From the NCBI RefSeq assembly GCF_028622115.1, contig NZ_CP097263.1, positions 9,435,501 to 9,499,500 of the forward strand: DNA of 64,000 nt. Direction: 5' to 3'. Source of the DNA: Kutzneria chonburiensis (GTDB taxonomy: Bacteria > Actinomycetota > Actinomycetes > Mycobacteriales > Pseudonocardiaceae). The translations under genes were made by a program, and so were the position numbers. The notes beneath the pieces are model-generated. The model was not told where the DNA came from and ran no database searches. It saw nothing but the letters and a program-made list of their open reading frames with translations. Shown here one piece after another: positions 40,082-41,566 of this stretch (its first letter is position 1; each line of letters starts with the position of its first letter).

Positions 40082-41353
40082 TTACAGGCCGAGAGCTTCG
40101 GTCACGGCGGCGGCGTTGGGCGGCACGACAGCCTTGGGACCGATGCGGTCGGCCACGGCGTCCAGGGTCTTGAGGCCGTCGCCGGTGATCAACAGCACGG
40201 TGTCGGCGTCGGGGTCGAGCTGCCCGGTCTCGACGAGCTTCTTGGCGGTCGCGACGGTCACGCCGCCGGCGGTCTCGGCGAAGATGCCCTCGGTGCGGGC
40301 CAGCAGCCGGATGCCCTCGACGACCTCCTCGTCGGTGACGTCCTCGACGGCGCCGCCGGTGCGGCGCACGGTGTCCAGCACGTACGGCCCGTCGGCCGGC
40401 GCGCCGATGGCCAGCGACCGGGCGATGGTGTCGGGGCGGACCGGCGCGACGACGTCGGTGCCGGCCTTGTAGGCCGTCGACACCGGGGAGCAGCCGGTGG
40501 CCTGGGCGCCGAACACCCGGTACGGGGTGGCGTCGACCAGCCCGAGCTCGCCGAGCTCGCGGAAACCCTTGTCCACCTTGGTCAACTGCGAGCCGGAGGC
40601 GACCGGCACCACGATCTGCCCGGGCAGCCGCCAGCCGAGCTGCTCGGCGACCTCGTAGGCCAGCGTCTTGGAGCCCTCGGCGTAGTACGGCCGGACGTTG
40701 ACGTTCACGAACGCCCAGTCCTCGTGCTCGGCGGCGAGCTGGGTGGCCAGGCGGTTCACGTCGTCGTAGTTGCCGTCGACGGCGATCAGGGCACCGTCGT
40801 ACACGGCGGTGGTGAGGATCTTGGCCTTTTCCAGCGAGGACGGGATCAGCACGACCGACTCCCAGCCGGCGCGGGCGGCCGCGGCGGCGACGGCGTTGGC
40901 CAGGTTGCCGGTGGAGGGGCAGGCCAGCACCTTGAAGCCGAGCTGGCGGGCCGCGGCCAGTGCGACCGCGACCACGCGGTCCTTGAACGAGTGCGTGGGG
41001 TTGCCGGTGTCGTCCTTGACCCACAGGTTGCGCACGCCCAGCGCCGCGCCGAGGCGGTCGGCCTTGACCAGGCGGGTCAGGCCGGGCTCGGTGTTGGGGA
41101 AGGACTGCACGTCGGTCGGCACCGGCAGCAGGTTGCGGTAGCGCCAGATCGACTTGGGGCCGGCCTCGATGTCCTCGCGGGTGACGCGGCCGAAGTCGTA
41201 GGCCACTTCGAGGGGGCCGAAACACTCGCTACAGGCGAATTCCGCGGCCAGCGGGATCTGGTGGCCGCACTCACGACAGCTCAGGGCGCGCGCGGGGCCG
41301 AGGTTGACAGGGCCCAAGTTGGCGGGCGTACGGGCGTCGACGGTCGAGGTCAT
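40082..41353 (-). CDS. thrC: Threonine synthase family PLP enzyme; candidate MetM-type homocysteine synthase
   Basis: A 423-residue fold-type II PLP enzyme. A zinc ribbon (C26, C29, C41, C44: CRECG and CSECFG) precedes the core, whose PLP Lys is K124 in TGNPTHSFKDR. The phosphate-binding loop is PSTGNLANAV. It should use O-phosphohomoserine. A SAM-I riboswitch covers its 5' leader, which links it to methionine supply; the related Streptomyces enzyme MetM makes homocysteine from O-phosphohomoserine with a sulfur carrier protein (MetO). No MetO-like gene follows here: the next gene is convergent. Plain threonine synthase is the alternative. ATG 41353, ribosome binding site GAGGAGA. Confidence 0.9.
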   Translation of the reverse strand: MTSTVDARTPANLGPVNLGPARALSCRECGHQIPLAAEFACSECFGPLEVAYDFGRVTREDIEAGPKSIWRYRNLLPVPTDVQSFPNTEPGLTRLVKADRLGAALGVRNLWVKDDTGNPTHSFKDRVVAVALAAARQLGFKVLACPSTGNLANAVAAAAARAGWESVVLIPSSLEKAKILTTAVYDGALIAVDGNYDDVNRLATQLAAEHEDWAFVNVNVRPYYAEGSKTLAYEVAEQLGWRLPGQIVVPVASGSQLTKVDKGFRELGELGLVDATPYRVFGAQATGCSPVSTAYKAGTDVVAPVRPDTIARSLAIGAPADGPYVLDTVRRTGGAVEDVTDEEVVEGIRLLARTEGIFAETAGGVTVATAKKLVETGQLDPDADTVLLITGDGLKTLDAVADRIGPKAVVPPNAAAVTEALGL

Positions 41354-41361
41354 GGGAGGCG

Positions 41362-41477
41362 TCTCCTCATCTTTCCCACGTGTGGGTCGGAATTGGCACC
41401 GTGTTCGACGCACAAAGACATGCGTCGCCGGTTGCCGGGGCTTCAACGGGCCGTTCCCTCTGCCCCTCTGGATGAGC
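41362..41477 (-). promoter_or_regulatory. SAM-I (S-box) riboswitch
   Basis: On the minus strand, CTCATC (41476-41471) pairs with GATGAG (41371-41366) as P1. Between them are the S-box core GAACGGCCCGTTGAAG and CCCCGGCAACC, the P3 stem GACGCA/TGCGTC and the hallmark GGTGCCAATTCC, then a short P4 (CCCAC/GTGGG) and AAAGATGAG. The 3' strand of P1 runs directly into the Shine-Dalgarno sequence GAGGAGA, so ligand-stabilised P1 should hide it and stop translation. No separate terminator hairpin is seen. Confidence 0.93.
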
Positions 41478-41566
41478 GGTGTTCAGTTGTGACCTGCACG
41501 GTACGGCAACGCGACGTGGCATCGCCACCCGCGAGCCCAGTATGCGGGACGTGGAAGGATGACGGG

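Follow-up and report, generated by a model that had tools for sequence, protein, structure and literature searches.

Why would a gene that curated models name threonine synthase stand behind a riboswitch for SAM and, if it serves methionine supply, where would its sulfur come from? These questions are raised by a metM-like gene of the window, that is, the whole stretch of 64,000 nucleotides analysed here. Its product scored 275.4 bits against the threonine synthase model TIGR00260 (cut-off 167.1) and its PALP domain was matched by PF00291. A MetM-type enzyme would be a paralogue of threonine synthase that draws O-phosphohomoserine from the threonine pathway and converts it to homocysteine by addition of sulfur. 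In the MetM/MetO homocysteine route of Streptomyces albulus, attributed to Hasebe et al. 2024, O-phosphohomoserine is said to be the MetM substrate, and MetO is reportedly thiocarboxylated and, in Streptomyces, encoded downstream of metM. The first-pass annotation of the locus had assigned the gene to this type. Judged from sequence, it is probably a MetM-type homocysteine synthase under a SAM-I switch, with no MetO found and with CysO as its likeliest sulfur donor.

Features of the metM-like locus, in positions of the window
Feature	Position	Strand	Basis
metM-like gene (annotated kind: threonine synthase), 423 aa, ATG at 41353	40082..41353	-	TIGR00260, PF00291, orthologues
SAM-I (S-box) riboswitch aptamer	41364..41478	-	RF00162 79.4 bits, full length
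P1 5' strand CTCATC	41471..41476	-	sequence reading, cmscan alignment register
P1 3' strand GATGAG	41366..41371	-	sequence reading, cmscan alignment register
Shine-Dalgarno GAGGAG	41363..41368	-	sequence reading
Small hairpin GAG-ACGC-CTC, flush on P1 with P1 enforced	41356..41365	-	leader folding, prediction only

The first-pass annotation had described a complete S-box aptamer on the minus strand, and the span that it marked (41354-41477) comprises the aptamer and the leader as far as the start codon. A cmscan search corroborated this, matching the RF00162 model over positions 1-108 of 108 (E 4.9e-17; gathering cut-off 44.4 bits), and no other match at or above the gathering threshold was found across the whole window. 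The overlap of three bases between P1 and the Shine-Dalgarno sequence was likewise found as described, GAG at 41368-41366 being common to the end of the P1 3' strand and the start of the Shine-Dalgarno sequence, which nine bases separate from the ATG (41353-41351). Conservation of the switch was assessed in the best 80 of 576 confirmed relatives, which are not a random sample. The aptamer core was present upstream of the orthologue in all 80, and a fuller aptamer pattern fitted all 84 leaders of a set composed of these 80, the window and three same-genus genomes. Seven bases 5' of the window aptamer lies the sequence ACAACT (41485-41490, minus strand); by pattern count, 68 of the 84 leaders carry ACAAY no more than 20 bases 5' of P1, where it may belong to a promoter. 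In both its RNA class, SAM-I, and its target, metM, the switch is of a known kind. Both SAM control of metM and the overlap of P1 with the ribosome binding site in SAM-I riboswitches are already published: excerpts of PMC12172450 place a SAM riboswitch upstream of S. albulus metM, and excerpts of PMC2258182 describe ribosome binding sites within P1, from which the arrangement in the window, where the P1 3' strand overlaps the Shine-Dalgarno sequence, does not differ in principle.

The 84 leaders were folded at 30 °C with P1 either enforced or free, in a model that leaves ligand and tertiary contacts outside. For the window leader, the mean unpaired probability of the Shine-Dalgarno sequence was 0.20 without enforced P1 and 0.05 with it, and the small hairpin listed in the table was predicted to stack flush on the enforced P1. 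In the unconstrained fold a longer hairpin captured the Shine-Dalgarno sequence together with part of the ATG, and P1 was 3.1 kcal/mol less favourable. The claim that P1 hides the ribosome binding site directly was therefore not upheld as it had been stated, since the Shine-Dalgarno sequence was mostly paired even without enforced P1; direct hiding by P1 is nevertheless plausible in this folding model. Across all 84 leaders, mean Shine-Dalgarno accessibility fell from 0.47 to 0.33 on enforcing P1, with a loss of more than 0.1 in 43 leaders and a gain in 10; according to the definition used in this test, the Shine-Dalgarno sequence overlaps P1 in 41 of them. As we picture the switch, plentiful SAM would let P1 form and occupy part of the Shine-Dalgarno sequence, the small flush hairpin would occupy the rest and translation would drop, and P1 would open when SAM is scarce. 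We infer this OFF logic, the binding of SAM and the reaction itself, homocysteine formation from O-phosphohomoserine.

Many of the related leaders possess an additional potential pairing, in which the P3 arm, on its 3' side (GCGAGG followed by T or C), is complementary to the bases lying between the Shine-Dalgarno sequence and the start codon (A or G followed by CCTCGC). Runs of at least seven consecutive pairs at a fixed position of the arm, with one G-U allowed, were counted in 43 of the 84 leaders, versus a mean of 2.6 and a maximum of 9 of 84 in 200 rounds with shuffled arms. An alignment was made of 43 leaders picked by eye for the motif, a set that overlaps with the former 43 and is not identical to it. 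In this alignment, 89.9% of the cells paired, a share inflated by the choice of rows by eye, compared to 34.3-54.1% after shifts of one to three columns. Both sides varied in four of its eight pairs; the end pair was C-G in 19 leaders and U-A in 14, a change that may represent few events. When the 3' letters were shuffled, the paired share was equalled in 1 and the count of pair types in 34 of 500 rounds, and in a whole-arm shuffle test p was ≤0.01 for 29 of 81 leaders. Leaders with the extra pairing include L049, L052, L084, L089, L094 and L103. The pairing of the P3 arm with bases 3' of P1 resembles the PK-2 layout of the SAM-IV riboswitch, as depicted in excerpts of PMC6890682; unlike SAM-IV, however, these leaders match SAM-I and retain P4, and the window leader does without the pairing. 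In the window and the three same-genus leaders only runs of 4-5 were found, the best run of the window being 5, and a long-range pairing between the P3 arm and the tail was rejected for the window's own leader. Among open-licence papers, no title or abstract dealt with extra pairing in SAM-I leaders. If real, this SAM-IV-like pairing would be a further means of closing a start site.

The source genome, a single contig of 10.4 Mb that is 98.13% complete, was surveyed for threonine and methionine genes. An ordinary threonine synthase is housed elsewhere in a hom-thrC-thrB run (557.7 bits for hom, 300.8 bits against TIGR00260 for thrC and 192.0 bits for thrB), and the metM-like protein is 37% identical to this second ThrC. 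The window gene was thereby ruled out as the main threonine synthase, in agreement with the first-pass annotation. A third, more distant ThrC-like protein of 417 aa (locus L024:8338-9591) had PRK06450 as its best NCBIfam match, at 207 bits and under the cut-off of 301; by eye, the neighbours of its gene resemble cell-division or murein genes. The genome also encodes MetY (NF005872, 817.8 bits, cut-off 703) and, after it on the same strand, MetX (NF047917, 525.2 bits, cut-off 475), in a stretch without RF00162 matches at the gathering threshold. This pair rules out MetM as the sole homocysteine route of the genome, and the source organism is thus not dependent on MetM. The first-pass annotation had named, as one case that would speak against MetM, an only thrC accompanied by a complete metX/metY or metB route; a complete metX/metY route was found, but so was a second thrC. 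Identification of the gene as MetM is therefore favoured by the separate hom-thrC-thrB run and by its orthology to MetO-linked genes, and weakened by the presence of metY-metX. The genome contains two RF00162 matches, the window aptamer and a copy upstream of an ABC operon encoding a NIL-domain ATPase, a permease and an NlpA lipoprotein, a putative transporter composed as in methionine importers.

No carrier gene adjoins the metM-like gene among the gene calls of the window, confirming that MetO is not encoded beside it: the gene looks monocistronic, and its downstream neighbour, whose product has weak Cache/PDC sensor matches, sits on the plus strand. As judged by the loci of the relatives and by a tree, the metM-like gene is nonetheless orthologous to genes that have a MetO-like carrier directly downstream. 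Such an ORF followed the orthologue in 31 of the best 80 of 576 relatives and was not seen in the other 49 loci. Forty-four of the latter belong to Pseudonocardiaceae, including two Actinopolyspora, or to a MAG that groups with them; the remaining five lie outside this family, and two of these five have less than 1 kb of downstream sequence. In a tree of the 84 MetM orthologues with the source genome's own ThrC, a branch with 100/100 support split 36 of them (all 31 with MetO plus the five just mentioned) from the other 48. Over the rows aligned, orthologues from MetO-bearing actinomycetes were 69-74% identical to the window MetM. In the same tree, contig L091, filed under a Spirochaetaceae MAG, grouped at 100/99 with the actinomycete MAG L112 and may, by its sequence, be misbinned.

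The search for the sulfur donor was extended to carriers encoded anywhere in the source genome. Three PF02597 matches were found, which by their neighbours were judged to be CysO, a ThiS-like and a MoaD-like protein, and a CysO query gave a single match. Neither the PF02597 profile nor the CysO query detected a dedicated MetO in this genome, and a hidden one was rejected on these grounds; CysO is the only MetO relative found in it. The first-pass annotation had placed the sulfur donor elsewhere in the genome; the genome-wide search for a MetO-like carrier agrees in that CysO alone was found. CysO, CysM and Mec constitute the mycobacterial cysteine synthesis system, and the source genome has the same gene order, mec-cysO-cysM (95.8 bits for the JAB domain, 353.5 bits for the cysteine synthase). 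Its CysO ends in GGSR, so that the two residues after GG would need to be removed before use. CysO C-termini from 30 loci of the MetO-less group extend one or two residues past GG in 17 cases and end in GG in 13; the extended forms would require trimming, a step for which the adjacent JAB protein Mec may be responsible.

Carriers were compared in 51 genomes, namely the source genome and 50 of the 80 relatives, 33 of them MetO-less and 18 others. With stricter filters, RF00162 was present in all 51 and occurred twice in 31 of the 33. With the CysO query, every one of the 33 MetO-less genomes yielded a single strong carrier (73-100% identity), and the 18 others yielded two or more matches apiece. 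A second, weak match of 35-46% identity in 13 of the 33 is a ThiS-fold protein, exemplified by L203:4327-4611 and by the matches in L202 and L204; in two of the three loci inspected it adjoins a protein starting near 'GTRKGLWLA'. Flanking of cysO by mec and cysM was observed in all 30 loci inspected in the MetO-less group (30 of the 33 genomes) and in 18 of 18 in the other group. A carrier tree of 79 rows and 91 columns resolved three groups, MetO at 100/99, the CysO of the MetO-less family at 99/94 and the remaining CysO at 98/69; the split of all CysO from MetO had 100/99 support. This grouping indicates that the carrier left in the MetO-less family is true CysO. Convergence of CysO on MetO was looked for with a negative result: CysO of the MetO-less family is not nearer to MetO than other CysO, with mean identities of 53.3 versus 51.9%, and thus shows no sign of adaptation.

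A broader sample comprised 150 genomes from 44 genera, at least 97% complete, of the source organism's family (by inference Pseudonocardiaceae). MetM was found in 150 of 150 at E≤1e-100, with 74-100% identity. A MetO query at E≤1e-15 gave one match, with an identity typical of CysO, in 141 genomes, two in eight and none in one, the last being a fragmented assembly. Since this query also matches CysO, one match means one carrier, the identity of which as CysO was checked in the 30 loci of the MetO-less group. A dedicated MetO was not detected with this query in the 150 genomes. The best identity to the MetO query in the family sample was 60%, compared to at least 63% for the MetO-like downstream ORFs of relatives, a thin margin. 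In one same-genus genome (G149) the second carrier, ending in AVAGG (L224:4413-4727), adjoins an aminotransferase-V-like ORF, in surroundings that by eye resemble secondary-metabolite biosynthesis genes. What is new here, and was unexpected, is that the family retains the enzyme and its switch without a detectable MetO. No title or abstract among open-licence papers concerned MetM without MetO or the feeding of MetM by CysO.

MetX proved to be less widespread. In the family sample, where up to 12 first-look candidates were scored per genome, it was found in 110 of 150 genomes at E≤1e-30, three of them reaching only about 1e-45; it is accordingly absent from 40 to 43 genomes, and four of the 20 lackers listed are single-contig genomes (G053, G061, G072 and G099). 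MetM, present in all 150, is therefore more constant in the family than MetX. In the 51-genome set, counting MetX at E<1e-100, it was missing from 13 of the 18 other genomes and from seven of the 33 MetO-less ones, namely Crossiella sp. SN42, Lentzea flava, Actinoalloteichus spitiensis, Prauserella rugosa, Actinopolyspora righensis, an Actinophytocola MAG and Haloechinothrix aidingensis. Three of these seven (G014, G022 and G024) had the CysO match alone. MetA was found in one of the 51 genomes and in none of the seven; with neither MetX nor MetA, O-phosphohomoserine would in principle be the only activated homoserine, among those sought, for which these seven have a maker.

In the mechanism that we propose, the most likely sulfur source of MetM would be thiocarboxylated CysO, the carrier that serves the cysteine synthase CysM; sequence comparison leaves the odds for CysO as the donor about even. 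CysO is the most economical candidate and free sulfide its main rival. The fuller scenario, in which MetM of the family lost MetO and one CysO feeds both CysM and MetM, making the thiocarboxylate pool a branch point between cysteine and homocysteine, is possible at slightly worse than an even chance. The same enzyme and switch could instead use free sulfide or persulfide, the loss of MetO having freed the enzyme from carriers. This is rather unlikely: failure to find MetO in the family sample and the lack of any shift of CysO towards MetO are in its favour, but the full mec-cysO-cysM loci of the MetO-less group mean that a thiocarboxylate carrier is at hand, and the MetM of the MetO-bearing group, 69-74% identical in the rows aligned, retains an adjoining carrier gene. 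It is highly unlikely that sulfur is delivered by a different ThiS-fold protein encoded in the genome, either ThiS or MoaD, or by a carrier that escaped the searches. The two further PF02597 matches, the second MetO-query match in eight family genomes and the weak CysO match in 13 MetO-less genomes would fit it, whereas the source genome offers one CysO-query match and only three PF02597 matches in all, and the second carrier of the same-genus genome sits among biosynthetic-looking genes.

A different function altogether must also be weighed: the protein could be an additional threonine synthase, or resemble threonine deaminase, with SAM control serving to keep the aspartate family in balance. 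Threonine synthase is the best curated name of the protein, and excerpts of PMC12172450 report that a cyanobacterial MetM homologue, adjoined by a metO-like gene, raised no methionine in cells and had threonine synthase and deaminase activity in vitro. However, a canonical thrC separate from MetM is present in 51 of 51 genomes, S. albulus metM is, in the same excerpts, likewise under a SAM riboswitch, and a SAM-I switch together with the adjacent carrier of the sister group would make no sense for threonine. This function is unlikely, and a MetM-type homocysteine synthase is the preferred reading.

Compared to S. albulus MetM/MetO, the locus is alike in having a threonine-synthase-like gene behind a SAM riboswitch; orthologues from MetO-bearing actinomycetes served for the sequence comparison. 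It differs in that no metO is adjacent, no MetO was found in the family sample and metY-metX is present. With the mycobacterial CysO-CysM-Mec system the source genome shares the gene order; it would differ in that its CysO, with the GGSR end, is proposed to supply a second enzyme. On the MetM reading, a gene named threonine synthase by curated models would be a methionine gene in all 150 family genomes, 40 of which are without MetX. If the proposal is true, CysO-fed MetM would, to our knowledge, be the sole route to homocysteine in these MetX-less members, and the family would offer a natural setting for testing whether a single sulfur carrier suffices for two PLP enzymes once the dedicated carrier has been lost.
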